DNA of 64,000 nt, from the NCBI GenBank assembly GCA_947489085.1, contig CANLCJ010000006.1, forward strand, positions 1 to 64,000. The letters are read 5' to 3'. The notes below the pieces were generated by a model. That model saw only the letters and a program-made list of their open reading frames with translations. It did not search any database and was not told where the DNA came from. Origin of the DNA: an uncultured Flavobacteriaceae bacterium. GTDB taxonomy: Bacteria; Bacteroidota; Bacteroidia; Flavobacteriales; Flavobacteriaceae. The position numbers were made by a program, and so were the translations under genes. Shown here in pieces: positions 12,001-60,497 of the stretch. The first letter of the stretch is position 1. The number at the start of each line of letters is the position of its first letter.

Positions 12001-15000
12001 CTATTGTTAATTGAGGTGCTACCGTTACCGAAATTGGCGCATCTGCTGTACACCCAAAGCTGTCTCTAACTACAACAGTATAGGTGTTGGGTGCTAAGTT
12101 TGTAAATGTGCTATTTGCATCAAAAGCGCCACCATTAATACTGTATTGGTACGGTGGGTTGCCACCACTTGCCGTTACGGCTATGGTCGCGCCACCATTA
12201 GCAGGATCGAAACATACATCTGTAGCTGCATCTAACGCTGCTGTAGGGTTTAAAGGCGCAGCTAAACTAAATGTTGTTGTTTCGTCACAACCATTGGCAT
12301 CTCTAACCGTTGCCGTATAGTTTCCTGCTTGTGTTAAACCTGTAAATGTGTTGTTTGTGTTAGTTGCCCCTCCCAAAGGTGTCCCATCAGGTTGCACTAA
12401 CTCGTATGTATAACCGCCTACACCTCCATTAGCTGTTATGGTTACAGATCCATCTGTAGCACATGTTATGGGTGTTGGCACATTTGTTGCTGTTAGTCTG
12501 GCCGGGGCTGGAGCTATTGTTGCAGTAGCTGTTTCTGTACAATTTGTATCGATATCTGTAGCAATAATAGTATAGTTGCCTTCGGCTAAATTTGTAATGT
12601 CTATAACTGGAGTTCCAGGTATAGAAGCTCCTCCATTTATTGTATATGTAAAGTTGTTGGTACCAGATACTGTAAAACGTATGGCACCATCGGTTTCTCC
12701 AAAACAGCTGATCTCACTTACTGTAGTTCCAACTATACTTAGTGCTGGTAATGGCTGTACATCGAATATCTCTGTGTAGGTACAGTTATCTTCGTCTCTA
12801 ACTTCGAAGGTATAAGTATCTGGATTAAGATCTTCGAAAACAGTACTGGTTTGGAAACCGGTAGCTGCACCTGCAGGTGCAATTATACGGTATTCTAGGT
12901 CTCCTCTTCCTCCTGTTGTGGCTGTAATAGATATATCTGTGGTTAACTCTGGACAAGATAATGCAGTGTTAGCAAACTCTAAATCTGTTGGTGGATCTAA
13001 AGGGGCTATTACTATAATATCTGTTATGCTACATAAGTTTGCATCTCTTATGATTATTGTATAATCTCCATCTACCAAGTTAGAGAATGTTGTTGTAGAT
13101 TGAAAGTTTATGCCATCAATGCTATATTCGTAAGGTGGTGTTCCGTTTTGAGCGTTAGAGACTGTTATTTCTCCGTTACCTAAACACGAATAAGGTGTAG
13201 TAAGCGCCACATCTGCTGTAAGCTGTGGTACTGTAGAAATTGTTTCTGTTTGTGCATCTGTAAAACAGATTTGACTTCCCGTAGTGTACTCTACAACGAC
13301 TTGATAGTCTCCTGCTGTTAAACTTGTAAAGCTTGGTGCAGTTTGAAATGTTGTACCGTTATCTATACTATAACGTATAGTGTTGCCATTTGCGTTAGAA
13401 ACATTTATATCTAAACGTCCTGAGTTTGGTTGGTCTGCACATAATATGTTCGTTATAGCTACTGTAAAATCTGGAGGTGCTATAGCATCTACATCGATAG
13501 TCGTTTCAACTTCACAATTGTTAAAATCTACAACACGAACCGTATATGTTCCAGCTATAGGAATAGCAAATGTGTTTTCGTTTTGAAATGTTGAGGCATT
13601 GTTTACAAAGTAAAAATATGGAGGAGTACCTCCTGTAGCTGTTATTGTAATCTCACCGTCCTCACAGGTTAGCGGAGTTGTTAAGGCTGAAGTTGCTTGC
13701 AACAACGGTGGCGCTATAATTTCTACGTCTTCTGTTTCAAGGCAGCCATCTTCACTTGTAACAGTAACAGTATATGTTCCTTCTGCTAAATTTTCGAATG
13801 TAAAATTATTAGCAACTAACGGCCCTACTGTATTTATAACATTGCTATTTTGGGCTATACTGAAAGTATATTGAGGCTCTGCATCTAATAAAGCTACTCT
13901 AACGCTGCCCAAATCGTCATTACATAGGGGTTGTATAACGTTAGTATTTATAGCAACGTCTCGTTCTCTAATTTGAACGTTTGGCACTGTAAATATACAG
14001 GGATTAGGGCTTACATTTAATTGTCTTGTTGAAACAGTATAGATACCTGGTACTGTTACCGAAAAAGTATTACTAGGTTGATAATTAACACCGTCTATAC
14101 TATACTCGTAGTCGTTAGGTACGCCCCCAACTACAATTTCTCCTGGTGTAGAACAAATAATATCTCTAGCCGTTGCTGTGGGTGTTAGTAGGTTTTCGAA
14201 AACATTGAAGTAAAACTGCTCAAAACATCCTCCTGGATAGTTAAGCGTTAGTCTGTATTGCCCTGCTGTATCTACTAGGTAATTTGGTCCTGTTTCTACT
14301 TGATTCCACACACAAGTTGGACTGGTATTTGCACAATTTGGATTAAGAACGGCATCGCAACTTGTTTCGTCTAATAGTTCCCAAATTATGGAAGATGTAT
14401 CTGTAATATTAGTTTGAAAAAATCTTGAATCTTCAGAGCCACATAAAAATATATTGGTTAGTTCGTCTCCATCATCTGGACAGATTACAATTTGATCTGC
14501 GAACTGTAATAGTGGATCTTGATCGTTAGAGCCAAATAAGGTTACGTTAAATTCTTGGGTGGTAGATTGGCAAGGTGCTTCTGCTGTATTAAAAGAAAAA
14601 TACGTTCTTGTTTCGTCTACAGTAATGGATTGTGTTGTTGCTATAACTGGGGTTCCTGTTGGGCTTGTAGACCAAGAATAAGAATCGAAACCATCTGCTG
14701 CTGTTAGAACGGTAGTGTCGCCACATAATGTTACTTCTTCTGTAAAAGTACAATCTAAATCTGTTAAAAAGTTAGTTGAACTTGGTACAATTAAACACCC
14801 CGTATTCGTACTGAAACTAGGATCGTCTGTTATTGTAAATTCTGTATTTAATGTCCCTTGATACGTGCTGAAAGCTTGATTTTCAACAATATTGGAACAA
14901 GCGTTAGTTAAAAGACTACAATCTGATACCACTCTAACTCTAAAGCGAATAGCCTGCGCTACATCTCCTACCTCTACTACATCGTTATCTACAGCGAAAA

Positions 15001-16395: not shown

Positions 16396-19300
16396 TTAGT
16401 TGTCTATTTTAACTAGACTCATTTTGCTATTATATGGTACGTCTTTCTTATTTAGCAATGCTTTTCTAGCACCGTCAATAGAATTGTATTTATTTACATA
16501 GATAAAATACTTATTTGTATTCACATCAAAAAAGAAATTAACATTTTTCTCTCCAGACTCTACCACTTTGGTTACAAAAGCATCTCTTTTATTTACGTCT
16601 GTGTGTACTGCTAAAACCATGTAATACCCTGGTTTCTCATTTAAAATATTCTTAACGATCTGAATATTAGTAGATTTTTCTTGTCCAAAATCGAAATCTG
16701 CTTCAGTATACTGTACATCTTTAGTTGCAGCTGTTTGCTTGATTCTAGCTAATGCAGCTTTGTCTTTGTTATATCGGTCTTGTTGGTTATCGAATGCTGC
16801 TTTTCTAATACGTCTGCTTCTTTCAAAATCTATAGCGGCTTTAATATCATTTAAATTAGATATTAATTTTGCTCTGGTTTCGAGAATTTTAGCTTGTTCA
16901 GCCTTTAGACGTACTAGGTTTTGCTCATAGAACGTATTTATAGGATCGTCTTTTGCTTTTACCTTTTTCTTTCTTTTTTCATAAAGTGCTTCTAATTCTG
17001 CTATTTTAGACTCTTGATCTTTTAAAGCGTCGTCTAATCGTATTTTTACACTTTCTAAAGCCTGATTTTCGGCAGAAACACTCTTAAACGGTTTAGGTGC
17101 GAGATAAATGCCTTGTTCACTCAAGTCATTTTCTTCTTTTAAATCATCTAAATCTTTTTGCTTGTTGGCTATTTTTTCAGACAATCTACTTAAAAGGTTC
17201 TCTTGAGATTTTATAGACTTATTCGTTCGTTTTGCTAATTCGTTCATTGCTTGAGATGTTTCGTCTGTAGCTTCTGGAATTTCTTGTGCTTTCCTACGAG
17301 CTTCGGCCAAACGTCTTCTCTCTTCTAATTCTCTCTGACTTTTTTCATCTTCAGCTCTTTTCTTAGCTGCTTCTTGCTCGATTCTTAAGCGTTCAGCTTC
17401 CTCGGCTTTACGCTTTTCTTCTGCTAACCTGTCCTGCTCAGCTTTCAATTTAGCGGCAGCTTCTGCTCTCAACCTTTCTTCAGCTTCTGCTTTAGCTTTG
17501 GCTGCAGCTTCAACTTTACGTTTCTCTTCTGCTAAACGTTCTTGCTCTGCCTTTAAGCGTGCTGCTTCTTCAGCTTCTGCCTTCGCTTTTGCCAAACGTT
17601 CTTGTTCAGCTTTTAAACGAGCGGCTTCCTCTGCTTCTGCTTTTGCTTTTGCTGCCGCTTCCCGTTTGGCTTGTGCAGCTTTTACAGCAGCTAACCTCTC
17701 TGCTTCTGCTTTGGCTCTTGCTTCGGCTTCTGCCTTCGCCTTTGCTGCAGCTTCTGCTCTACGTCTTTCTTCTTCTAAACGTTCCTGCTCTGCTTTTAAA
17801 CGAGCGGCTTCCTCTGCTTCTGCTTTTGCTTTTGCTTCTGCTTCTCGTTTGGCTTGTGCGGCTCTTACAGCAGCCAATCTCTCTGCTTCGGCTTTGGCTC
17901 TTGCTTCGGCTTCTGCCTGAGCTTTTGCTGCAGCTTCTTCTCTGCGTCTTTCCTCTTCTAAACGTTCCTGCTCTGCTTTTAAACGAGCGGCTTCTTCGGC
18001 CTCTGCTTTAGCTTTTGCTTCCGCTTCTCGTTTTGCTTGTGCGGCTCTTACTGCTGCCAATCTTTCTGCCTCTGCTTTGGCTCTTGCTTCAGCTTCTGCC
18101 TGAGCTTTAGCTGCAGCGTCTGCTCTGCGTTTTTCTTCTGCTATACGTTCTTGTTCTGCTTTTAAGCGAGCGGCCTCCTCAGCTTCGGCTTTGGCTTTTG
18201 CTTCAGCTTCTGCTTTACGTTTTTCCTCTGCTATGCGCTCTTGCTCTGCTTTTAAACGAGCGGCTTCTTCAGCCTCCGCTTTGGCTTTTGCAGCTGCTTC
18301 TGCTTTGCGTTTCTCCTCTGCTATACGTTCTTGTTCTGCTTTTAAACGGGCAGATTCTTCAGCCTCTGCTTTAGCTTTTGCTTCGGCTTCACGTTTAGCT
18401 TGTGCGGCTCTTACTGCTGCCAATCTTTCTGCTTCTGATTTGGCTCTTGCCTCGGCTTCTGCCTGAGCTTTTGCTGCGGCGTCTGCTCTACGCTTTTCTT
18501 CTGCTATACGTTCTTGTTCTGCTTTTAAACGGGCAGCTTCTTCAGCTTCTGCTTTAGCTTTTGCTTCGGCTTCACGTTTAGCTTGTGCGGCTCTTACTGC
18601 TGCCAATCTTTCTGCTTCTGATTTGGCTCTTGCCTCGGCTTCTGCCTGAGCTTTTACTGCGGCGTCTGCTCTACGCTTTTCTTCTGCTATACGTTCTTGT
18701 TCTGCTTTTAAACGGGCAGCTTCTTCAGCTTCTGCTTTAGCTTTTGCTTCGGCTTCACGTTTGGCTTGTGCGGCTCTTACTGCTGCCAATCTTTCTGCTT
18801 CTGATTTGGCTCTTGCCTCGGCTTCTGCCTGAGCTTTTGCTGCGGCGTCTGCTCTGCGTTTTTCTTCTGCTATACGTTCTTGTTCTGCTTTTAAACGGGC
18901 AGCTTCTTCAGCTTCTGCTTTAGCTTTTGCATCTGCTCTACGCCTTTCTTCCTCTATACGCTCCTGTGCAGCTCTTAAACGATCAGCTTCCTCGGCTTCA
19001 GCTTTGGCTCTCGCTTCTGCTTTGCGCTTCGCCTGCGCTGTTCGAACAGCTGCAAGTCTATTTGCCTCCGTTTTTGCTCTTGCCTCGGCTTCTGCCTGAG
19101 CTTTTGCTGCGGCGTCTGCCCTACGTTTGTCTTCTGCTATACGTTCTTGCTCTGCTTTTAAGCGGGCAGCGGCTTCGGCATCTGCTTTCGCCTTGGCTTC
19201 GGCGGCTTCTGTTTTAGCTTTAGCTGCTGCATCTCGTTTGGCTTGTGCAGCTCGTACTGCTGCTAATCTATCTGCTTCTGTTTTTGTTCTTGTGTCTGCT

Positions 19301-20712
19301 TCTGCTGCAGCTTTAGTTGCTGCTTCTGCTCTACGTTTATCTTCAGCTATGCGTTCTTGTTCTGCTTTTAAACGGGCTGCGGCTTCGGCATCTGCTTTGG
19401 CTTTAGCTGCTGCATCTCGTTTGGCTTGTGCAGCTCGTACTGCTGCTAGTCTATCTGCTTCTGTTCTAGATCTAGCTTCTACCAGAGCTTCTCTTTTATC
19501 TTTTGCTGCTTGTAAAGCTGCTAAGCGATTTTCTTGAGCCTTCTTCTGAAAAGCTGCCCTTCTTTCTTTTGCTTCTTGTATTCTTTTTTGTGATGCTTCT
19601 GCTTGCTGTCTTAACTTTTCTTCACGTTCAGAATTTTTAAGCTGCGCTTCGGCTTTACGCTCTTCTGCAATTCTAATTCTTCGCTCCTCCATAACTTGCC
19701 GATCTGATTCTGAAATAGTATTGGCTTTAACTTTTTTCCTTTTTACGTCAAAAAGAGAAGCTTCTTCATCATCGGCACCATAATTATAGTTGTATTTCTT
19801 GGTAAATTTATAAGCTAATGTAATTTCGTGAGAGCTTCCAAACTCAGCAAAATTTCCTGTAGATTGCTCAAAATTGTATTCTATTGCTACACCTAGCGCT
19901 AAATTAAGACCTACACCTGCAGAAATTCCATATAGTGTATTATAACTTGCTTGCGCCCATACGCCTTTAGGCACTGTGAGCATTGCTAAACCAGACAAAA
20001 CGGTTTGGCCTTGCTTTAGTTCTCCTCTAACTAAACCTGTAAACTTACTTTCGTCTAAAAAGCCACTAGCATCCATATATCCTGTATAAATTACGTGGGC
20101 TTGCAGTGCTTGTTCTGGATTATCTTCTATTACTTGCGCATCTGTTATGCTGTAAGATACTAAATTTTTAACGGATAAACCTAAATCGAAAAACTCTGTT
20201 CCGTAGTTAATACCTGGATCTACTGTTACTATTAAGCTAGATGGTAAACCGGCAAGAAAAGGGTCGCTAGCTTCTGGACTATTAAAAATAACGTTTCCTT
20301 CGTTTATTCCACTTTGATATACACCTAAGTTAAGGCCAAAAGTTAAATTACTGTTTCTATTAAAATTGGCGTTGTAAGCAAAATTTGCAACTCCACCAAA
20401 CGTAGTTAATATTCCAAAATTTTGTTGAAACAAGCCTAAACCAGCTCCTATTTTTTCCGAAAATCGGCCTGAATAGCTAAACAAGAATGTTTGCGGGCCT
20501 TCATCTAACTGTAATAATTGCCTTTTGTTTGTAAATGTTAAGTATTTATTTTGCTCCCTAACTAAACTAAATGTGGGATTTAAGATATACTTATTAAACT
20601 TGAATGAGTTTCTAACTGGTAGCGCTAAAGCAGAAATTGCATTCCCTTCTTGAGAATGAAATTGCTGTATAGTACAGAAAATTAGAAACATATAGAGTAG
20701 GTATTTATTCAT
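16396..20712 (-). CDS. sprD: SprD-like protein: PorP/SprF domain fused to a long Ala/Glu/Lys/Arg coiled coil
   Basis: A 1438-residue protein. Signal peptide about 1-20 (ends FHSQ); a PorP/SprF-type barrel domain about 25-310; then about 800 residues (roughly 338-1145) of uninterrupted helix rich in Ala, Glu, Lys and Arg built of 61-residue units; a second, less regular coiled coil (about 1150-1330); and a C-terminal globular segment (about 1340-1438, GYYMVLAVHTD...YFIYVNKY) that resembles a SPOR-like peptidoglycan-binding fold. Anchored in the outer membrane, the helix could span the periplasm and reach the wall; that is inference. In F. johnsoniae SprD assists SprB-dependent gliding. Start is 1 base after the sprC stop, so translation is probably coupled. 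Confidence 0.88.
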   Translation of the reverse strand: MNKYLLYMFLIFCTIQQFHSQEGNAISALALPVRNSFKFNKYILNPTFSLVREQNKYLTFTNKRQLLQLDEGPQTFLFSYSGRFSEKIGAGLGLFQQNFGILTTFGGVANFAYNANFNRNSNLTFGLNLGVYQSGINEGNVIFNSPEASDPFLAGLPSSLIVTVDPGINYGTEFFDLGLSVKNLVSYSITDAQVIEDNPEQALQAHVIYTGYMDASGFLDESKFTGLVRGELKQGQTVLSGLAMLTVPKGVWAQASYNTLYGISAGVGLNLALGVAIEYNFEQSTGNFAEFGSSHEITLAYKFTKKYNYNYGADDEEASLFDVKRKKVKANTISESDRQVMEERRIRIAEERKAEAQLKNSEREEKLRQQAEASQKRIQEAKERRAAFQKKAQENRLAALQAAKDKREALVEARSRTEADRLAAVRAAQAKRDAAAKAKADAEAAARLKAEQERIAEDKRRAEAATKAAAEADTRTKTEADRLAAVRAAQAKRDAAAKAKTEAAEAKAKADAEAAARLKAEQERIAEDKRRADAAAKAQAEAEARAKTEANRLAAVRTAQAKRKAEARAKAEAEEADRLRAAQERIEEERRRADAKAKAEAEEAARLKAEQERIAEEKRRADAAAKAQAEAEARAKSEAERLAAVRAAQAKREAEAKAKAEAEEAARLKAEQERIAEEKRRADAAVKAQAEAEARAKSEAERLAAVRAAQAKREAEAKAKAEAEEAARLKAEQERIAEEKRRADAAAKAQAEAEARAKSEAERLAAVRAAQAKREAEAKAKAEAEESARLKAEQERIAEEKRKAEAAAKAKAEAEEAARLKAEQERIAEEKRKAEAEAKAKAEAEEAARLKAEQERIAEEKRRADAAAKAQAEAEARAKAEAERLAAVRAAQAKREAEAKAKAEAEEAARLKAEQERLEEERRREEAAAKAQAEAEARAKAEAERLAAVRAAQAKREAEAKAKAEAEEAARLKAEQERLEEERRRAEAAAKAKAEAEARAKAEAERLAAVKAAQAKREAAAKAKAEAEEAARLKAEQERLAKAKAEAEEAARLKAEQERLAEEKRKVEAAAKAKAEAEERLRAEAAAKLKAEQDRLAEEKRKAEEAERLRIEQEAAKKRAEDEKSQRELEERRRLAEARRKAQEIPEATDETSQAMNELAKRTNKSIKSQENLLSRLSEKIANKQKDLDDLKEENDLSEQGIYLAPKPFKSVSAENQALESVKIRLDDALKDQESKIAELEALYEKRKKKVKAKDDPINTFYEQNLVRLKAEQAKILETRAKLISNLNDIKAAIDFERSRRIRKAAFDNQQDRYNKDKAALARIKQTAATKDVQYTEADFDFGQEKSTNIQIVKNILNEKPGYYMVLAVHTDVNKRDAFVTKVVESGEKNVNFFFDVNTNKYFIYVNKYNSIDGARKALLNKKDVPYNSKMSLVKIDN
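18298..18930 (-). repeat. Near-identical 183-bp tandem repeats inside sprD
   Basis: Blocks starting at 18298, 18481, 18664 and 18847 (the last partial) share almost every base over 183 bp, encoding a 61-residue helical unit (EEAARLKAEQER...AAQAKREAEAKAK). Related but more diverged units extend on both sides, from about 17390 to 19480. The near-identity of the central copies, against diverged flanking ones, points to recent duplication or gene conversion in the middle of the array. The unit is in frame, so copy-number change would alter helix length without breaking the protein. Confidence 0.9.
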
Positions 20713-42898: not shown

Positions 42899-43867
42899 TT
42901 GAGTAACACACTACACGTAATTAATACCACTTTTAAAAACGACGTTTGTAAAGGCCTCTCTGCAACGCATAAATACTTAGACTCTAAATATTTTTACGAT
43001 GAGATAGGAGATGATTTGTTTATACAAATTATGAACATGCCAGAATACTACCTTACCAGAGCAGAATTCGATATTTTTAAACACAAAACCCGACACCTCA
43101 TACAAGCTTTGGGTGTACATCCTGAAACACATTTCGATGTTATAGAATTAGGTGCAGGAGACGGCACGAAAACAAAAGCACTTTTAGAGGTGCTACACCA
43201 CACTAATTTTAAGTTCTCGTACCTTCCAGTAGATATTTCTGCTAATGCCCTTTCTATCCTTAAGCACAACATTACAATGGCTCTGCCAGAGGTAAGCATA
43301 TACCCCCAAGAAGGCGATTATTTTAATATTTTAAAAGACATTAAACGTACAAAAACACCTAAGGTGGTGTTGTTTTTGGGGTCTAATATTGGAAATTTAA
43401 CAGATCTTGAAGCCAAAGGTTTTATAAGTAAATTAAGTGCTGCTCTTAACCCTAAAGACAAAGTTATTTTAGGAACAGATCTTATAAAGTCTAAATCTAT
43501 AGTTTTGCCAGCCTATAGTGATGCCGCAGGAATTACAAAACAGTTTAATCTTAACATTTTACACCGTATAAACAAAGAACTGCAAGGCAATTTTAATATA
43601 GATGCTTTTGTACACGAAGCCGAGTATACTGAGGAAGAGGGTATTGCTAAGAGTTTTTTAAAAAGTACAAAAACACAAAGTGTTTACGTAGAAGCCCTAG
43701 AAAAAGCATTTCATTTTAATAAAGGCGAGCGCATACACACCGAAATTTCAAGAAAGTACAATGATACCATTTTGGCTGAAATTTTAGAAGGCTCGTCGCT
43801 TAAAATAACAGACAAACTAACCGATAGTAATGGGGTGTTTGCAGATTATATTTTAGAAAAAGTATAA
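42899..43867 (+). CDS. egtD: L-histidine N(alpha)-methyltransferase EgtD
   Basis: A 322-residue SAM-dependent methyltransferase that trimethylates histidine to hercynine, the EgtB substrate. The typical start region KYLDSKYFYDEIGDDLF and MPEYYLTRAEFDIF is followed by the SAM-binding loop VIELGAGDGTKTKALL, LPVDIS, and LFLGSNIGNL. The C-terminal lid (HTEISRKY) contributes to histidine binding. The frame begins with TTG at 42899, 12 bases after the egtB stop; no ATG is available before the conserved region, so TTG initiation is likely. Overall length is that of mycobacterial EgtD. Confidence 0.92.
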   Translation: MSNTLHVINTTFKNDVCKGLSATHKYLDSKYFYDEIGDDLFIQIMNMPEYYLTRAEFDIFKHKTRHLIQALGVHPETHFDVIELGAGDGTKTKALLEVLHHTNFKFSYLPVDISANALSILKHNITMALPEVSIYPQEGDYFNILKDIKRTKTPKVVLFLGSNIGNLTDLEAKGFISKLSAALNPKDKVILGTDLIKSKSIVLPAYSDAAGITKQFNLNILHRINKELQGNFNIDAFVHEAEYTEEEGIAKSFLKSTKTQSVYVEALEKAFHFNKGERIHTEISRKYNDTILAEILEGSSLKITDKLTDSNGVFADYILEKV

Positions 43868-43869
43868 AT

Positions 43870-44547
43870 TTGAGTTTGGCAAGCACACATATTGCGCTTT
43901 TAGGTTTGGGCAGCCAAAGTACTTTGTTTTATTTGGAAACGCTTAACGCTAAATACAATGCGTTACATGGCGAGTACCACACCTTTCCCTGCATACTGTT
44001 TAATGTAGATTTCAATACGCTAAATCCGTTTTTACCGCAGCAATTCGATACGCTTATTCCCGCGTTAAAAGCACATTTAGAGGCCTGTTTCATACTTCCT
44101 ATTCGTAGCGTACTCATTCCTAACATCACCTTACACGAAACCTACGATAGAGGTCTATTACAATTCCCTATCATTCACCCACTAAAATTACTCGTCGATC
44201 GTTTAACAGCAGAAGGTGTTACGGCTGTTACCCTTTTTGGATCGGCATATACTATGAACTCCCCATACATTCGATCTTACTTAACACCACTGGGCATTAC
44301 AGTACACACACCAGAAGCTAATGCGCTTACTGCTATAGACGCTTTAAGACAAGCCTTGTATGCTGGTCATGCTACCGAAACTGCTATCGCAGACTATAAA
44401 AGATTTATCGTTACATACTCGAAAACTACTAAAGTAGTTATCGCCTGTACTGAGCTCTCTATGCTCTATTCTCAAATTTTAGAATTACCCGCTGTTATAG
44501 ATCTTGCGCTGCTTCAAATTGAAGCGGCTTTAGCCCTATCTGAGTAA
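43870..44547 (+). CDS. Asp/Glu/hydantoin racemase-superfamily protein with a single catalytic cysteine
   Basis: A 225-residue protein of the aspartate/glutamate racemase fold (two similar alpha/beta halves). LGLGSQSTLFYLETLN is the nucleotide-loop-like start and FGSAYTM (123-129) is a mid-protein signature. Racemases use two cysteines. The second is present (Cys193 in ACTEL), but at the first site, usually CNT or CTNT before H, the protein reads IPNITLH (83-89) with no Cys. It may thus be a decarboxylase, isomerase or lyase rather than a racemase; arylmalonate decarboxylase is a single-cysteine member of this superfamily. It starts at TTG 2 bases after egtD, so it is almost certainly in the egt operon. 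Its role in ergothioneine metabolism is inferred. Confidence 0.8.
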   Translation: MSLASTHIALLGLGSQSTLFYLETLNAKYNALHGEYHTFPCILFNVDFNTLNPFLPQQFDTLIPALKAHLEACFILPIRSVLIPNITLHETYDRGLLQFPIIHPLKLLVDRLTAEGVTAVTLFGSAYTMNSPYIRSYLTPLGITVHTPEANALTAIDALRQALYAGHATETAIADYKRFIVTYSKTTKVVIACTELSMLYSQILELPAVIDLALLQIEAALALSE

Positions 44548-44595
44548 TTTATATTTTTAGTCTTATGTATTTTACATGGGGAAGTCTACGCCTCC

Positions 44596-45837
44596 TTAAT
44601 CCACCTTATTCTTCGCTTCTATCCATTTGCTCAAGTACTTTGTACTTTGCAGGGTATGGTGCATAAGCATTGCTCCTGTAAAATTAGCATCGCGTTTTTC
44701 TTGTAAGTGGTTTAAGGTCTCTCGTATTAAATTGTTAAAAATAGGCACGTGTTGGTTTACGCTTAGATAAGTAGTAATGCTTTCTGGCATTTTTTGGTGT
44801 TTAGCATCCCAATGCGATGCATTAGCATATAGTGCAACCGCTGCGTCTATAAAAGCCTCTGGGGTCTCTGCTATAGTACCGCTTGTGGTTACAGGTTGTA
44901 TTAAACCTTCTGCCCCAACTGCTGTGGTTATCACAGGCGTTCCATTTAACATAGCATCTACCAACTTGCCTTTTAAACCAGCACCAAAACGTACAGGCAC
45001 TAAACATACTCTAGCCTGTTGCATTACCGTATGCACATTTTCAGCAAAACCTTTTACAAGAAATCCTGCTTTAGTATTATGCAGTTGTTTTACTTTTTGC
45101 GGGGTGTATGCGCCATAAATATGCAATTCTGCCTTGGGTAACTTTTGACGTATTCTTGGCCAAAGGGTCTGTTTTAAATACATTACAGCATCGTAATTGG
45201 GGGCGTGCATAAAATTACCTATAAATATAAAGTGTTGTCGCGCTTCGAAAGCAGGCAAGGTTTGAGTTGTTAGAAGAGATTCGTCTATTAAAAACGGTAA
45301 ATAATGCAGTAGTGATGGCGGAATACTAAATTGATTTTTAAGCAAATGCATCTCATAGGTAGAAATAATCAAACTGATATCTGAGCGGTATATACTGGCT
45401 ATTTCACGTTTTGCCATATCCCCTTTTAAATAAGTAGCAATAGGCGCATTGGCTTTAAAGGCTTGTTGTCTGGCTTTACGTAAAAAGTGTAAATCTTCGG
45501 TATCTAATACGCGTAGAGCTTCGGGGCAATGTGCTGCAACACGCCAACTGTATTGTTCTTCCATCATAAAACGATCGAACATAACAATATTAGGTTGTAA
45601 TGTTTTAATAAAAGTATCGAAACTCGAGTCGTTTAAAACAATGGTTTCTTGAGATACTCCAAGTGTTTCTAAAGGATAGGCATTGTCTGTTTTTGCACAA
45701 GAACTTGCAAATGTAATGGCGTAACCTTCGGCTTTAAAAATGTGAATTAATTGTAACATTCTACTACCAGCAGCAGAACTTCTAGGCTCTGGCCAAACAT
45801 ATCCTATAATAAGCAGTGTTTTTTGCTTTTTTACCAT
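44596..45837 (-). CDS. Glycosyltransferase, GT4-type
   Basis: A 413-residue cytoplasmic glycosyltransferase of GT-B fold. The N-terminal half begins KTLLIIGYVWPEPRSSAAGSR, as in group 1 (GT4) enzymes that accept surface sugars. The C-terminal nucleotide-sugar half has FIGNFMHAPNYDAV and VCLVPVRFGAGLKGKLVDAM, with the LVDAML...PVITTAVGAEGL segment near the active site. A longer frame begins with GTG at 45861, but the ATG at 45837 (MVKKQKTLL) fits the family start better. It stands alone between the egt operon and the CHRD gene; no polysaccharide cluster is here. The acceptor and sugar cannot be predicted. Confidence 0.87.
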   Translation of the reverse strand: MVKKQKTLLIIGYVWPEPRSSAAGSRMLQLIHIFKAEGYAITFASSCAKTDNAYPLETLGVSQETIVLNDSSFDTFIKTLQPNIVMFDRFMMEEQYSWRVAAHCPEALRVLDTEDLHFLRKARQQAFKANAPIATYLKGDMAKREIASIYRSDISLIISTYEMHLLKNQFSIPPSLLHYLPFLIDESLLTTQTLPAFEARQHFIFIGNFMHAPNYDAVMYLKQTLWPRIRQKLPKAELHIYGAYTPQKVKQLHNTKAGFLVKGFAENVHTVMQQARVCLVPVRFGAGLKGKLVDAMLNGTPVITTAVGAEGLIQPVTTSGTIAETPEAFIDAAVALYANASHWDAKHQKMPESITTYLSVNQHVPIFNNLIRETLNHLQEKRDANFTGAMLMHHTLQSTKYLSKWIEAKNKVD

Positions 45838-45960
45838 ATCTATTTTTACTAGGGCACGCACGCTTGCATGCTTTCTTTATGCGAAATCGTTTTACAACGA
45901 ACTTACTAAAAATAGACCACATAGATTTTAGGTTTCTTACAGGTATTTGATAGTACCCTA

Positions 45961-45993
45961 AAAAAGAAAAGCCACCTCATAAATGAGATGGCC
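45961..45993 (-). terminator. Intrinsic terminator of the CHRD repeat-protein gene
   Basis: On the minus strand GCCATCTCAT (45993-45984), a 2-base loop and ATGAGGTGGC (45981-45972) form a 10-bp stem with one G-U pair, followed by TTTTCTTTTTT (45971-45961). It lies 43 bases after the stop at 46036. Confidence 0.9.
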
Positions 45994-46035
45994 CTTCAAA
46001 TTAACAAAATTCAACAAAAATAAACAGATAATTAA

Positions 46036-49000
46036 TTAGTTCTTAATAATCCTTTTTGTGATGACTTTACCATTATCTAAATCGTTAATGTTTAATAAAT
46101 AAACACCTTGTGCTAAAGAAGATATGTTAACGCGTTCTACTGAATTACTCATGTTTAATGTTTTACCATACAATTGCTTTCCTGTGATATCAAACAACTG
46201 GATGTTTACATTTTGTGAGTTCGTATTAGAATTAATTGAGATTACATCTCTAGCTGGGTTAGGGAACACGCTAAATGTAATTCCTTCATCGAAAGTATTT
46301 ACATTTAATGTTGCATCTCTTGTTAGTATGATGGTGAATGCTTCACTTGGTGTAAATACACTACCATCTGAAGCTAATACTCTATGGTATAACTCCACTG
46401 AATCTCCATCTGCTATACCTGCATTTTCCAATAATGTACTTATACTAGCATTATCTGTAACAAAGCTTAATGCTGTTCCTACTTTATCGTTTACTAATAA
46501 AGTTTCGAATGTAGCATCTGTAGCCAATTGGAACGTGTATACTAAAAGATCATTATTACGATCGGTCGCTGTTGTCCATGACACTTCAAAAGGTGTATCA
46601 TCTTCACTGCTAATAACTACAGTTTCGTTATTTTCTGGGCTTTCAATCTCAGATGCTGTAGGGAATGCATTATCATCTCTTAACACCTGTCCTCTTAATT
46701 CTCCAGAAGCATGAGCTGTAGTGTGGATGTTCACATAAATATTTCCTTCTAATAAAGCTGCTCTTTGTAGCTCGTCGATTGTAAAGGTATTATCAGCCGC
46801 GTTGTAAACACCGCTTCTTAAATCTGATGCTACAGTAGCATTTAATATGATAGTAACATCTCCATTATTTGCTGCATCAGCAATATGTAAATGAGAACCA
46901 CCTGCTATCGAAGCGTCAAAATCTCCTTCTAAACCGCTAAATCCACCTGTTACAGTTAATTGATCTCCTGTAAGTTCGAATTGTAAGTTTCCAACAGCTT
47001 GCGTAATTACTGGCTGTACTTCGTTAGCACCAGATAAATTAGTACCTAAATACGTATTTGCCAATGGTAATACTTGTCCTCTCAATTCACCTGGAACAAA
47101 GTTTAAACTGTGTACGTTTACATAATATCCTCTACTAAACAGTTGTTCTATTTGTTCTGGAGACAATGTAAATGTGTTGTCTGCTGGTAACAGTACCGCA
47201 TTTCTATTATCTGCTGCCAATGTAGGGGTTAATATAAAATCTACACCTGCATTAGTTCCTGCAATACCAGGGTGTAAATGTATACCACCTGCTAATTCTG
47301 TATTTAAATCTGATGATAGGTTATTAAATGAACCACTAACTGTGATTGTACCAAAACCATCATGCGTAATTACTAATCGTCCAGTAGCATCTGTATTAAT
47401 TGCTGGCACTTCTTGTGCTCCAGTTAATTCTGCTCTAAATACTGCTGCTGCTAAAGGTGTAATTTGTCCTCTTAATTCACCTGGCATAAATGCTGTTGAA
47501 TGTATGTTAACATAATTCCCTTGTGCCAGTAATAAGGCTACTTGAGCATCTGTTAATGTAAATGAATTGTTAGCAGCTTCTAGTACTGCACCTCTGTTAT
47601 CTTCGTCTGCTGTTAGATTTAAAATAATAGATATCCCTCCATTTCTTCCTGCTTCTGCATCGTGAATATGTGCACCTCCTGCTAATTCTACAGCGATGTC
47701 TCCCGATAAATCATCGAACGATCCTGAAACCGTAAGTTGGTTTCCATCTAATTCCATAACAAGGTTACCACTAGCTTCAGAGCTAATTGATGGTACTTCG
47801 TTACTTCCTAATAAATTAGTTTGTAAATACTGATCTACTGTTGGTAGTATTTGTCCTCTCAATTCTCCTCCAGGGAATGCTACAGAATGAATATTAACAT
47901 ATAATTCTCTTGCATTTAATGCTGCCAATTGGGCTTCTGTAAGCGTGAATGTATTATTTACGGCCTCATACGTTCCAGATCTTAAATCTCCAGATATTGT
48001 TGTTGCCAATAATAATTCTACCCCACCGTTACGACCAGCAATAGCTTGGTGTATGTGAGCTCCACCTGCTACTGTAGCATCGAAATCACTTGTTAATCCT
48101 GAGAATGATCCAGTAACTGTTAACACGTTTTCATTTAAAGTGGCACTTATGTTACCATAAGCTGTAGTTAAAGCTACAGGGTTTTCTTGAGTACCAGTTA
48201 ATGTTGCTGTAAAGTCTGTAATAGGCGCAGCAGCATTTCTAACTACTGTTATTGCCATTGTAGATACGTCTGAACAGGTTTCTAGAGCACGTAATGCTGA
48301 TAATGGACCTCCTATAAAGCTCGCGCCGTTATCGGCTAAACCTCTGTAAGACCATCCCCAGATTTGACATGTTCCTGCAAATACACCTTCTAAATCTATT
48401 ACACTGCTGTTCGTAATATTTAAAATCTCTGATGCATCTTCGTTTGTTATTACATAACGGTAAGACAAGTTTGTTGCCCCTGGGTTATCATGTGTTACAA
48501 TGATAGGGTTTGCAATATTATCTCCAGTTATTATTTGTGCTGAAGTTTCATTTTCTATAATAGTAGTTCCATTAGCACCGCTAGTGTTCTCTACATCAAT
48601 TGCTATAGTTCCTGCATCGGCAGCTTCTCTTATTACTGTAATTGCCATTGTTGACACGTCTGAACATGTTTCTACAGCGCGTAATGCTGATAATGGACCT
48701 CCTATAAAGCTTGCTCCGTTATCGGCTAAGCCTCTGTAAGACCAGCCCCAGATTTGGCATGTTCCTGTTCCTGCTACGCTTAAGTCGATTGAACTGCTGT
48801 TCGTAATGTTTAAGATCTCTGATGCATCTTCGTTTGTTATTACATAACGGTAAGATAAATTCTCTGCACCTGGGTTATCGTGTGTTACTACTAATGGATC
48901 GCCTACGTTATCGATACAGATTACGGCACTTAATCCATCTTCTGCTATTGATGTTGTATTGTTTGGGTTTCCTGTTGCGTCTATATCTATTGCTATAGTA

Positions 49001-52000
49001 CCTGCATCGGCAGCTTCTCTTATTACTGTAATTGCCATTGTTGACACGTCTGAACATGTTTCTACAGCGCGTAATGCTGATAATGGACCTCCTATAAAGC
49101 TTGCTCCGTTATCGGCTAAGCCTCTGTAAGACCATCCCCAGATTTGGCATGTTCCTGTTCCTGCTACGCTTAAGTCGATTGAACTGCTGTTCGTAATGTT
49201 TAAGATCTCTGATGCATCTTCGTTTGTTATTACATAACGGTAAGATAAATTCTCTGCACCTGGGTTATCGTGTGTTACTACTAATGGATCGCCTACGTTA
49301 TCGATACAGATTACGGCACTTAATCCATCTTCTGCTATTGATGTTGTATTGTTTGGGTTTCCTGTTGCTTCTATATCTATTGCTATAGTACCTGCATCGG
49401 CAGCTTCTCTTATTACTGTAATTGCCATTGTTGACACGTCTGAACATGTTTCTACGGCACGTAATGCTGATAATGGACCTCCTATAAAGCTTGCTCCGTT
49501 ATCGGCTAAGCCTCTGTAAGACCAGCCCCAGATTTGGCATGTTCCTGTTCCTGCTACGCTTAAGTCGATTGAACTGCTGTTCGTAATGTTTAAGATCTCT
49601 GATGCATCTTCGTTTGTTATTACATAACGGTAAGATAAATTCTCTGCACCTGGGTTATCGTGTGTTACTACTAATGGATCGCCTACGTTATCGATACAGA
49701 TTACGGCACTTAATCCGTCTTCTGCTATTGATGTTGTATTGTTTGGGTTTCCTGTTGCGTCTATATCTATTGCTATAGTTCCTGCATCGGCAGCTTCTCT
49801 TATTACTGTAATTGCCATTGTTGATACATCTGAACAGGTTTCTACAGCGCGTAATGCTGATAATGGACCTCCTATAAAGCTTGCTCCGTTATCGGCTAAG
49901 CCTCTGTAAGACCAGCCCCAGATTTGGCATGTTCCTGTTCCTGCTACGCTTAAGTCGATTGAACTGCTGTTCGTAATGTTTAAGATCTCTGATGCATCTT
50001 CGTTTGTTATTACATAACGGTAAGATAAATTCTCTGCACCTGGGTTGTCGTGTGTTACTACTAATGGATCACCTACGTTATCGATACAGATTACGGCACT
50101 TAATCCGTCTTCTGCTATTGATGTTGTATTGTTTGGGTTTCCTGTTGCTTCTATATCTATTGCTATAGTTCCTGCATCGGCAGCTTCTCTTATTACTGTA
50201 ATTGCCATTGTTGATACATCTGAACATGTTTCTACAGCGCGTAATGCTGATAATGGACCTCCTATAAAGCTTGCTCCGTTATCGGCTAAGCCTCTGTAAG
50301 ACCAGCCCCAGATTTGGCATGTTCCTGTTCCTGCTACGCTTAAGTCGATTGAACTGCTGTTCGTGATGTTTAAGATCTCTGATGCATCTTCGTTTGTTAT
50401 TACATAACGGTAAGATAAATTCTCTGCACCTGGGTTATCGTGTGTTACTACTAATGGATCGCCTACGTTATCGATACAGATTACAGCACTTAATCCGTCT
50501 TCTGCTATTGATGTTGTATTGTTTGGGTTTCCTGTTGCGTCTATATCTATTGCTATAGTTCCTGCATCGGCAGCTTCTCTTATTACTGTAATTGCCATTG
50601 TTGATACATCTGAACATGTTTCTACAGCGCGTAATGCTGATAATGGACCTCCTATAAAGCTTGCTCCGTTATCGGCTAAGCCTCTGTAAGACCAGCCCCA
50701 GATTTGGCATGTTCCTGTTCCTGCTACGCTTAAGTCGATTGAACTGCTGTTCGTAATGTTTAAGATCTCTGATGCATCTTCGTTTGTTATTACATAACGG
50801 TAAGATAAATTCTCTGCACCTGGGTTATCGTGTGTTACTACTAATGGATCGCCTACGTTATCGATACAGATTACAGCACTTAATCCGTCTTCTGCTATTG
50901 ATGTTGTATTGTTTGGGTTTCCTGTTGCTTCTATATCTATTGCTATAGTTCCTGCATCGGCAGCTTCTCTTATTACTGTAATTGCCATTGTTGACACGTC
51001 TGAACATGTTTCTACGGCACGTAATGCTGATAATGGACCTCCTATAAAGCTTGCTCCGTTATCGGCTAAGCCTCTGTAAGACCAGCCCCAGATTTGGCAT
51101 GTTCCTGTTCCTGCTACGCTTAAGTCGATTGAACTACTATTCGTGATGTTTAAGATCTCTGATGCATCTTCGTTTGTTATTACATAACGGTAAGATAAAT
51201 TCTCTGCACCTGGGTTGTCGTGTGTTACTACTAATGGATCGCCTACGTTATCGATACAGATTACAGCACTTAATCCGTCTTCTGCTATTGATGTTGTATT
51301 GTTTGGGTTTCCTGTTGCGTCTATATCTATTGCTATAGTTCCTGCATCGGCAGCTTCTCTTATTACAGATACCGGGTTAGATAAATCAAAACAACCTTCT
51401 AAATCTGATAAATTATTTCCAACTATATTTCCTGTAAAACCATCTTCGTATCTCACATACCAGATTTCACAAGTTCCAGTTCCTGCACCATTTAAATCGA
51501 AAGGACCGTTAGCACTTACGGCTAAAATAGCATCTGTAGCAGCATCTGTAACTAAAAAACCAAAGTTGCTCCCTACACCAGCAGATATAATATCTACACC
51601 AATGTTATCTGCTTGGTTATCTACACATGTTACTGCACTAAGTCCATCTTGAGCAATGCTAGTGGTATTACTGGCACTATCTCCACTAATAATAATGTTT
51701 CCTGCTTCTACATTACAAACGTTAGCATTAGCTTGTCCTAGTGTTGGTGTATTTGCTGCAAAACTAGATGGAGCGTTACCTTCTCCTGAATATTGTAAAG
51801 ACAAATTAGCATCGAATGCTGGAATAAAGTCTGATACTGAAGGCCAAATACCTGCTGCTACAGCTACACTTGCTCTACCTTGAGCGCCACTACCCCATTG
51901 TAAATAATCGACAATTGCGTCAGAACTTCCAAAACTACCTGTTCTGTACAATCCTAGTTCGCCATCGTCGCTGTCTATAAAATTAAAACCGCTTACCACT

Positions 52001-52236
52001 ACAATAGCGTTAGGCGCTAAATTTAAACTTCCAGACTCTACTGTAATGCTGGAAGAACTTAATTGCCTATAGGAAGGCCTGTCGCACAACCAGTACGATG
52101 AAACATCTACGGTTGTACTACCTAAATTTCTAAGCTCTACAGAGCCTGTTTCCTGTACTTCGTTTATCACGATTTGGCCATGTACTAGACCAAAACATGA
52201 TAGAAGTAATAATGATAGTAATTTTTTCATTTTCAT
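46036..52236 (-). CDS. Large T9SS-secreted protein: lamin-tail domain, 130-residue repeats, four CHRD domains, type A sorting domain
   Basis: About 2066 residues. Signal peptide (about 1-20, ends GLVHGQ); a lamin-tail-like domain (IVINEVQ, VELRNLG) to about 150; nine beta-rich 130-residue repeats (about 165-1330), the first divergent, seven near-identical, the last divergent; four CHRD domains (about 1350-1870: GNISATL, HIHQAIAGRNGG, YVNIHSVAFPGGELRGQ); a fibronectin-like segment; and a type A T9SS sorting domain (VFPNPARDVI, ending KRIIKN). The protein should be exported and attached to, or released from, the surface. CHRD domains occur in chordin and many bacterial surface proteins with unclear function. 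A GTG opens the frame at 52263, but the ATG at 52236 or 52230 gives a proper signal peptide. Confidence 0.9.
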   Translation of the reverse strand: MKMKKLLSLLLLSCFGLVHGQIVINEVQETGSVELRNLGSTTVDVSSYWLCDRPSYRQLSSSSITVESGSLNLAPNAIVVVSGFNFIDSDDGELGLYRTGSFGSSDAIVDYLQWGSGAQGRASVAVAAGIWPSVSDFIPAFDANLSLQYSGEGNAPSSFAANTPTLGQANANVCNVEAGNIIISGDSASNTTSIAQDGLSAVTCVDNQADNIGVDIISAGVGSNFGFLVTDAATDAILAVSANGPFDLNGAGTGTCEIWYVRYEDGFTGNIVGNNLSDLEGCFDLSNPVSVIREAADAGTIAIDIDATGNPNNTTSIAEDGLSAVICIDNVGDPLVVTHDNPGAENLSYRYVITNEDASEILNITNSSSIDLSVAGTGTCQIWGWSYRGLADNGASFIGGPLSALRAVETCSDVSTMAITVIREAADAGTIAIDIEATGNPNNTTSIAEDGLSAVICIDNVGDPLVVTHDNPGAENLSYRYVITNEDASEILNITNSSSIDLSVAGTGTCQIWGWSYRGLADNGASFIGGPLSALRAVETCSDVSTMAITVIREAADAGTIAIDIDATGNPNNTTSIAEDGLSAVICIDNVGDPLVVTHDNPGAENLSYRYVITNEDASEILNITNSSSIDLSVAGTGTCQIWGWSYRGLADNGASFIGGPLSALRAVETCSDVSTMAITVIREAADAGTIAIDIEATGNPNNTTSIAEDGLSAVICIDNVGDPLVVTHDNPGAENLSYRYVITNEDASEILNITNSSSIDLSVAGTGTCQIWGWSYRGLADNGASFIGGPLSALRAVETCSDVSTMAITVIREAADAGTIAIDIDATGNPNNTTSIAEDGLSAVICIDNVGDPLVVTHDNPGAENLSYRYVITNEDASEILNITNSSSIDLSVAGTGTCQIWGWSYRGLADNGASFIGGPLSALRAVETCSDVSTMAITVIREAADAGTIAIDIEATGNPNNTTSIAEDGLSAVICIDNVGDPLVVTHDNPGAENLSYRYVITNEDASEILNITNSSSIDLSVAGTGTCQIWGWSYRGLADNGASFIGGPLSALRAVETCSDVSTMAITVIREAADAGTIAIDIDATGNPNNTTSIAEDGLSAVICIDNVGDPLVVTHDNPGAENLSYRYVITNEDASEILNITNSSSIDLSVAGTGTCQIWGWSYRGLADNGASFIGGPLSALRAVETCSDVSTMAITVIREAADAGTIAIDVENTSGANGTTIIENETSAQIITGDNIANPIIVTHDNPGATNLSYRYVITNEDASEILNITNSSVIDLEGVFAGTCQIWGWSYRGLADNGASFIGGPLSALRALETCSDVSTMAITVVRNAAAPITDFTATLTGTQENPVALTTAYGNISATLNENVLTVTGSFSGLTSDFDATVAGGAHIHQAIAGRNGGVELLLATTISGDLRSGTYEAVNNTFTLTEAQLAALNARELYVNIHSVAFPGGELRGQILPTVDQYLQTNLLGSNEVPSISSEASGNLVMELDGNQLTVSGSFDDLSGDIAVELAGGAHIHDAEAGRNGGISIILNLTADEDNRGAVLEAANNSFTLTDAQVALLLAQGNYVNIHSTAFMPGELRGQITPLAAAVFRAELTGAQEVPAINTDATGRLVITHDGFGTITVSGSFNNLSSDLNTELAGGIHLHPGIAGTNAGVDFILTPTLAADNRNAVLLPADNTFTLSPEQIEQLFSRGYYVNVHSLNFVPGELRGQVLPLANTYLGTNLSGANEVQPVITQAVGNLQFELTGDQLTVTGGFSGLEGDFDASIAGGSHLHIADAANNGDVTIILNATVASDLRSGVYNAADNTFTIDELQRAALLEGNIYVNIHTTAHASGELRGQVLRDDNAFPTASEIESPENNETVVISSEDDTPFEVSWTTATDRNNDLLVYTFQLATDATFETLLVNDKVGTALSFVTDNASISTLLENAGIADGDSVELYHRVLASDGSVFTPSEAFTIILTRDATLNVNTFDEGITFSVFPNPARDVISINSNTNSQNVNIQLFDITGKQLYGKTLNMSNSVERVNISSLAQGVYLLNINDLDNGKVITKRIIKN
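48621..51360 (-). repeat. Seven tandem 390-bp repeats, nearly identical, in a dimeric pattern
   Basis: The marker cagcttctct recurs at 48621, 49011, 49401, 49791, 50181, 50571, 50961 and 51351, exactly 390 bp apart. Each unit encodes 130 residues (AIDI[D/E]ATGNPNNTTSIAEDG...CSDVSTMAITV) with few base differences. One GCG/GCT variant at the [D/E] codon alternates strictly D-E-D-E-D-E-D along the seven copies, indicating a 780-bp higher-order unit. Other variants (ACGGCACG at 49453 and 51013; ATTACGGC versus ATTACAGC) do not follow that alternation. A more diverged copy lies at about 48240-48620. Confidence 0.95.
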
Positions 52237-52263
52237 TTCTTTAATTAATTGTTTTACGAGCAC

Positions 52264-59313: not shown

Positions 59314-59954
59314 TTAAACCCGTACTAAAAAACATTTACAACTAACACTTAAGTAATTGTAAATAAATTAATTATGTTTTTTTTTAAGATGTAATTTTTT
59401 GCAAATTTATATAATCTTTTATCTATACCTTACTTTTTAGCCCAGACTTATCTTTTTATCGAGCATCTGCCTGTAAATGCTCCAGATTTTATGATGACTT
59501 TAGTCGAAATTGCAGACTTCTATTACACGTTAAGCATAACTTATACTTATAATTTAATAGAAAAATAAAGCGGTTGTATCTTTTGTATTTAAATCTTCTA
59601 AATTCAGGAAATACACTATAATAGAACTCTAATACGAGTTTAAAGGAATTAGCAGAACTCTAATCTCTAAACATTAGTTTTTTAAAGTATATCCCATAAA
59701 AACGTACACGATAAATTATGGGAATTTTAGCTTAGACAAATGTTTCTAAACTTAATTTTATAAAAACTACTTAAATTTATCAGATGTACTAATATAGAAC
59801 TCATCTTAACTTTATCTATTTCCTAAAAAATGACTGAAATTCACCGATTTTTCGTTACTTTTTTCGTTCGTAACGCTGCTATGAACTTCAAAAAACACCT
59901 CATCTGGTTAAATTTCAACTTATTTTCGGTTAAAAACAAAAGTCAAGATCAGTC
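59314..59954. other. 641-bp AT-rich intergenic region
   Basis: Lies between the start of the LytTR regulator gene and the stop of the DUF4252 gene, both on the minus strand. I see no gene. A 6-bp inverted repeat CGTTAC/GTAACG (59853-59858, 59870-59875) has no U run and is not a convincing terminator. The regulator promoter should lie in its left part, but no exact consensus was found. Confidence 0.55.
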
Positions 59955-60497
59955 TCATTGTTTTAAATGTTCTCCTCCAGGAATATTCATTTTTTGAGCA
60001 AGCTTAAAAACCTGACTAAGGTCTATATTACCCGTCATGGCAACAACAATAGTTTCTGCCTTGTATTTGCCATCTTTTGTTTTATAATCTGCTGCCATAG
60101 TTTGGGCGTTTACAAAAATTAAAAGCTCTTTCACATGGTTGGAATCATTGCCTGATTTTACATAAAAATTCACTTTAGCACCGTCTTCTTTAAATTCCAT
60201 TAAAGCTTCTAAGTTGTTAGATCGAGAGCCAACCCATTTAGACATTTCTAGAGCGATAGTTTTATTTTGAGTAACCATTGTTTTAAAACTGGTTATGCTC
60301 TTAACCATATCCATATATAACTTTGCCTCAGGATCGTCTGTATCAATGCCTATATTAGCAATCATTTGAAACATTTTAGGTTTAATGTTTACATAAGTAA
60401 CTTCAGGACTGTTACTATATGTTTCAAAAATGGTATTTTGAGCCAAAACAGAAATTGGCAGCCAAAACATCGCAATTATAAAAAGTAGTGTTCTCAT
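59955..60497 (-). CDS. DUF4252 domain-containing exported protein
   Basis: About 180 residues with a signal peptide (MRTLLFIIAM...VLAQN). The mature part is a compact mixed alpha/beta domain of the DUF4252 family: AKLYMDMVKSITSFKTMVTQN, MEFKEDGAKVNFYVKS, and a C-terminal TGNIDLSQVFKLAQKM. Similar proteins in Bacteroidota are periplasmic, with no known function. The frame can be extended to an ATG at 60524 (MPPNLKQILM), but the ATG at 60497 yields a normal signal peptide. The 95-residue gene upstream is in the same direction and probably co-transcribed. Confidence 0.85.
   Translation of the reverse strand: MRTLLFIIAMFWLPISVLAQNTIFETYSNSPEVTYVNIKPKMFQMIANIGIDTDDPEAKLYMDMVKSITSFKTMVTQNKTIALEMSKWVGSRSNNLEALMEFKEDGAKVNFYVKSGNDSNHVKELLIFVNAQTMAADYKTKDGKYKAETIVVAMTGNIDLSQVFKLAQKMNIPGGEHLKQ

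Follow-up and report, generated by a model that had tools for sequence, protein, structure and literature searches.

The locus described here, in DNA from an uncultured Flavobacteriaceae bacterium, encodes seven near-identical tandem units in which one residue alternates strictly between Asp and Glu, and it raises the question of whether this alternation marks a 780-bp higher-order (two-unit) repeat, as the sequence-only reading had proposed, or a pattern confined to a single site. Throughout, the window is the whole stretch of DNA that was analysed (64,000 nucleotides; contig CANLCJ010000006.1 of assembly GCA_947489085.1), and positions refer to it. The array gene and its parts are as follows.

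46036–52263, minus strand: array gene, as called by the open reading frame (ORF) tool; predicted secreted protein of ~2,075 aa
51982–52179, minus strand: weak Pfam match to a lamin-tail domain (LTD; E 0.005, below the Pfam cut-off), after a signal-peptide-like start
51340–51687, minus strand: diverged N-terminal unit, 43–45% identical to the array units
48621–51350, minus strand: near-identical 390-bp units, seven in all, each encoding a single 130-aa domain
48979, minus strand: base that alternates (unit position 359, here that of unit 1), GAC/GAA (D/E), recurring every 390 bp through unit 7
48229–48609, minus strand: diverged C-terminal (eighth) unit, 74% protein identity to the array units
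46740–48213, minus strand: four CHRD domains (Pfam); far end estimated, best stretch aa 1351–1472
46045–46269, minus strand: T9SS C-terminal sorting domain, type A (Por_Secre_tail / TIGR04183)

The ~130-residue domain is present in nine copies, seven of them near-identical. The ORF tool starts the gene at a GTG; judged by eye, the likelier start is the ATG that opens MKMKKLL, a few codons downstream, and the N-terminus looks like a signal peptide. A Pfam scan of the whole protein returned the CHRD domains, a SusE-like stretch, the sub-threshold LTD and the sorting tail, while no Pfam model matched a single array unit at E values up to 1. Candidate matches to GARS_N, BsuPI, Integrase_Zn, DUF6484 and DUF2624 (Pfam) and to WBM0748_T4SS (NCBIfam) were dropped because no single stretch passes and the scores are sums over the repeats. 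The T9SS sorting domain may place the protein at the cell surface.

The 390-bp repeat itself is certainly beyond chance. TRF reported a period of 390 with 8.0 copies, the diverged eighth unit (48231–48620) included, and similarity extends to 51366, past the seven units, each of which is exactly 390 bp long. Base-by-base comparison bore out the description of seven near-identical copies in strict D-E-D-E-D-E-D order, with a mean DNA identity of 98.3%. The alternation had been attributed to a codon pair; the alternation held, but it lies in a single base of one codon, unit position 359, which reads G-T-G-T-G-T-G on the plus strand (GAC/GAA on the coding strand). There are 15 variable positions among the seven units, all of them third codon positions and 14 of them silent, and site 359 is both the sole amino-acid difference and the sole strictly alternating site (1/15). 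Since each unit offers 298.3 non-silent and 91.7 silent sites in frame, this distribution indicates that the protein is strongly conserved, with selection holding it while silent sites drift; the same distribution means that the earlier description of the array as young needs care. As had also been noted, the ACGGCACG variant (positions 56 and 59) recurs four units apart, in units 3 and 7 only.

How surprising is one alternating site? At least one such site occurred in 8.6% of all 5,040 possible unit orders and in 10.9% of 20,000 independent site shuffles, so that the D/E alternation is only weakly beyond chance. The diverged eighth unit, which was left out of these tests, carries GAG (E) and would lengthen the D/E series by one.

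Amplification of a dimer is expected to leave units two apart more alike than neighbours, at many sites, and this is not what the window array displays. With site 359 set aside, mean differences at distances of one to six units were 4.5, 5.8, 7.25, 5.67, 7.5 and 9.0; neighbours were at least as close as observed in 4.0% of unit orders, and units two apart in 41.6%. Pairs of equal parity differed at 6.11 sites and pairs of unequal parity at 5.92. Among 945 trees the most parsimonious needed 17 steps, compared with 22 (+5) for the best tree that separates odd from even units; when site 359 was included, the figures were 20 and 23. Only two sites separate units 1 and 2, and only two separate units 5 and 6; in both cases one of the two is site 359, such that these neighbours look like copies of one another. 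The lag, parity and parsimony tests thus all speak against a 780-bp higher-order unit, and the alternation is a one-site pattern rather than the mark of a standing dimer, although a two-unit step may have occurred in the past. Because chance produces alternation in only 9–11% of cases, such a step has to be taken seriously, and we return to it below.

That a genuine higher-order array would have been recognised is indicated by other members of the same domain family. The domain is present in 46 of 299 Flavobacteriaceae genomes at E 1e-8 (the genome of the window included), and from 16 of these 46 genomes we took a single stretch each and compared the units within its frames, scoring the 17 frames with at least four units (two further frames, with three units, were not scored). 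Three frames exhibited a clear two-unit pattern: L072 (genome G269), L073 (G281) and L076 (G251), the first two from genomes each listed with one contig. Column counts used the DNA of the first 100 residues of each unit, with diverged end units excluded (5/6, 7/9 and 8/10 units used in L072, L073 and L076, respectively). Strictly alternating columns made up 80 of the 107 variable columns in L072, 20 of 106 in L073 and 18 of 178 in L076, and differences fell from 97.0 at distance one to 10.7 at distance two in L072, from 70.0 to 32.0 in L073 and from 116.9 to 72.0 in L076. These arrays consist of homologous domains in tandem, as in the window array, but alternate across many sites where the window array does so at one. 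Higher-order arrays therefore occur in this family and are recognisable, and the window array is unlike them. Weaker patterns were found in L084 and, in non-strict form, in L038, where units 1 and 3 are closer than units 1 and 2; L078_1 (four units, with a gap inside the array) had 99.0 identity at distance two versus 94.3 at distance one. A homogenised middle between diverged end units, as in the window, is also present in L035, L036, L037 and L039. The L078 locus (G210:C38) has five domain units at 96–100% protein identity within a 1,436-aa open frame. Together, the two-unit arrays of this family provide a yardstick against which one alternating residue among near-identical units, easily over-read as a higher-order unit, can be judged.

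The same lag (autocorrelation) logic was applied by Bjorklund et al. 2006 (PMC1553488), who report that Ig repeats expand chiefly one domain at a time and that peaks at two are weak. In these terms, the window array is without a peak at two, whereas L072, L073 and L076 have one.

Several rounds of exchange or conversion had been suggested for the array, and the four-gamete test points the same way, with 20 of 105 site pairs showing all four combinations. Site 359 conflicts with its flanking sites 317 and 380, which lie 42 and 21 bp away, implying either that any conversion tract around it was short or that site 359 has mutated more than once. We compared exchange models by simulation, using a simple model of our own whose autocorrelated states rank the models only roughly. 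The expectation that unit-by-unit duplication would not give the alternation was upheld: an alternating site arose in 0 of 7,211 accepted states under single-unit exchange only, and in 20 of 7,092 when half of the events were short conversions. Mixtures of one- and two-unit or of one-, two- and three-unit exchanges gave 4–11% alternation. Dimer exchange with 50% conversion gave 93%, yet in the same model differences at lag 1 were at or below those at lag 2 in just 2.6% of states. Dimer exchange free of any conversion left too few states for a score, only 12 of 11,032 seven-unit states having 12–18 variable sites. The exact combination observed was rare whichever model was used, its joint probability never exceeding 3.8%. 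With the four-gamete share added, models were scored on three features together: one and only one alternating site, lag-1 differences no larger than those at lag 2, and 10–30% of site pairs showing all four combinations. The best scores, all at 95% conversion, were 0.028 for dimer, 0.023 for one- and two-unit, 0.014 for one-to-three-unit and 0.010 for single-unit exchange. Within such models, heavy conversion is favoured, and whether two-unit steps are included makes little difference to the fit of the conversion-heavy versions.

These simulations bear on the proposal that a D-E dimer was amplified in the past and its traces later blurred by conversion at every site but one. Single-unit exchange alone never produced alternation, none of the models reproduces the summary better than dimer exchange with 95% conversion, and with the four-gamete share added this dimer model lies slightly above the one- and two-unit model, which counts against our preferred explanation (below). 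The proposal also draws on the real two-unit arrays in the same family, on the eighth unit continuing the series, and on the array of the sister species (genome G006), which has five units: its two-unit difference from the window is a single comparison of drafts. All five of those units carry D (GAC), however, so the sister array is without any such variant, and in the window no second site backs a dimer, lag-2 differences exceed those at lag 1, the odd/even split costs five extra steps once site 359 is removed, and the close pairs of neighbouring units resemble copies of each other. On balance we consider a dimer past unlikely.

The exact order of the units is fragile and, like their number, may depend on assembly. 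The genome is a 135-contig draft, and the array contains exact repeats of up to 266 bp. To gauge how ambiguous the order of such an array is from short k-mers, we counted the distinct sequences sharing all k-mers over 47800–51900: at least 20,000 fit at k=99 and below, 2,640 at k=127 (212 of them alternating), 108 at k=151 (8 alternating), 4 at k=201 (1 alternating) and 2 each at k=231 and k=246 (1 alternating each), and the order was unique at the tried values of 251 and above. Four of 11 related loci (L033, L034, L038 and L040) are gapped or cut inside their arrays. These figures agree with the earlier warning that the array is a likely mis-assembly site. It could follow that the units are real and their order the assembler's choice, as the many orders that fit at k=127 and k=151 would allow; paired or long reads could nevertheless have fixed the order, and the window contains no N. 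We judge an order that is purely an artefact to be improbable.

Recurrent mutation at a loosely constrained residue offers another route to alternation. In L036 the same residue varies (G/V/V), and the only other protein variants there, three in number, fall in the final three codons of its last unit; the residue differs between arrays (D, A, G or V), it lies where the first strand ends, in a region that the structural model predicts with low confidence, and the conflict of site 359 with both of its neighbours is of the kind that repeated mutation would leave. The protein variants of L035, L037 and L039 fall at other residues, however, making loose constraint only a possibility; the sister species has GAC in all five units, and an E codon in three units would require an identical transversion to have happened repeatedly. 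This explanation we regard as very improbable.

Instead, we favour a history in which recombination among units, combined with selection on the protein, made the array, and the D/E alternation is a one-site leftover of that process, or partly the assembler's order, rather than a standing 780-bp unit; we give this reading a probability of roughly 0.6. On this account, a stalk-like run of one beta-rich domain would be carried by a protein with a T9SS sorting signal, and unequal exchange between units would alter copy number. Short-tract gene conversion together with unequal exchange would keep units similar within each species, selection would keep the protein almost unchanged, and the strict alternation would have been left by reshuffling or, in part, by the assembler's choice of order. 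Counting against this reading are the rarity of the observed combination in all of the models, the 9–11% rate of chance alternation, the eighth unit with its E codon and the two-unit difference in copy number from the sister species.

A single unit was modelled as a beta-rich domain (pLDDT 80.8); a two-unit model was of low confidence (pTM 0.60) and does not fix the geometry. One unit had 0 matches among PDB sequences up to E 10, and a fold search gave 514 matches up to E 10 and 0 at 0.001. The best 50 of the 514 include antibody, FnIII, PKD and cadherin entries, in keeping with a likeness, and a likeness only, between the modelled unit and a beta-sandwich. Judging from the layout of the protein alone, the likeliest role of the array is that of a stalk holding an outer domain at a distance from the cell surface.

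Comparable systems are known. The array protein is flavobacterial and T9SS-sorted, unlike the Gram-positive Periscope Proteins. Gram-positive examples of the latter are anchored by sortase. As described in PMC8201768, Periscope Proteins such as SasG, Rib and Sgo_0707 have tandem, near-identical folded domains in a surface protein, and by prediction the array protein is alike, combining 98.3% DNA identity between units with a modelled beta-rich fold. The same source describes repeat number as differing between relatives, as it does here between the window and G006, and high DNA identity as thought to drive changes in copy number. Periscope Proteins are also elongated rods that project a ligand-binding domain at the N-terminus; in the array protein no binding domain was identified. 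Fibrillar adhesin-like proteins likewise contain repeated stalk-like domains, and Por_Secre_tail is reported mostly in Bacteroidetes, according to PMC8286594. A member of that class would carry, in addition to its stalk, one or more known adhesive domains, of which the paper lists 27; CHRD has 0 occurrences in its main text.

Comparison with the sister species supported the expectation of a length-variable array, with seven copies in the window and five in G006, both draft assemblies. The array is present in 2 of 12 genomes of the genus (that of the window included), and in a third, G004, one weak match was obtained. A search with the flanks covered the remaining nine congeners: in each, the 157-aa gene begins no more than 300 bp after the glycosyltransferase match and purB comes next, leaving no room for an array gene. 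The five and seven units are separated by four fixed differences, four sites vary in both arrays, and 11 sites vary only in the window array and seven only in that of G006. Silent divergence is 0.069 and 0.062 within the arrays and 0.158 between them, and between the two genomes it is similarly low for the C-terminal unit (0.164) and from the CHRD domains to the gene end (0.208); it reaches 1.43 in purB and, within the array gene, 1.64 in the N-terminal part. The same contrast is evident in DNA identity.

43820–51357, no strand: raised similarity to G006, strongest (about 94–96%) over array and CHRD part, and lower and irregular in the rest of the stretch

Identity is 94% at 46012–50583, 89% in the glycosyltransferase and 90% at 44002–44540, against 69–81% in the longer pieces matched upstream, from 51893 on, and mostly 72–79% below 41.6 kb. 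Upstream the change is abrupt, at ~51357, where the N-terminal unit joins the first unit of the array. Elsewhere the picture is less regular: identity drops to 78–89% across roughly the final hundred codons of the gene and to 62% across its last seven, the intergenic stretch 45823–46011 does not align with G006, glycosyltransferase windows range from 80 to 97%, an additional ~2.4 kb is present in G006 next to the glycosyltransferase, and outside the raised stretch, at 42.6–42.8 kb, identity climbs to as much as 93% in a small patch. This unevenness makes the lower edge near 43820 uncertain and allows for several events. In the window and its congeners we also observed a ~160-bp stretch (window 59792–59967) with several copies in congeners at 67–86% identity, a possible dispersed element.

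The simplest reading of these alignments is that the array and CHRD part were exchanged between lineages well after their split, with one end at the array edge, in which case turnover within the arrays (silent divergence 0.06–0.07) would be younger than the exchange. More tentatively, and with some doubt, the array may have served as a landing site for between-species exchange, in which the array and at least the CHRD part moved (neighbouring genes perhaps also), the N-terminal part stayed, and the join fell exactly at the first array unit. If so, repeats would allow stalk and base of a surface protein to be swapped without loss of its outer domain, and the sharp break at the array edge, should it be confirmed, would open repeat-guided swapping of parts between surface proteins to testing. 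Among the literature matches listed, nothing concerned the window array or between-species exchange at a repeat edge.

Two further features of the window were observed. A second tandem array, of 183 bp × 7.3, lies at 17596–18937 inside a 1,438-aa ORF (16396–20712), and a 4,432-aa ORF occupies 3032–16330 on the minus strand.
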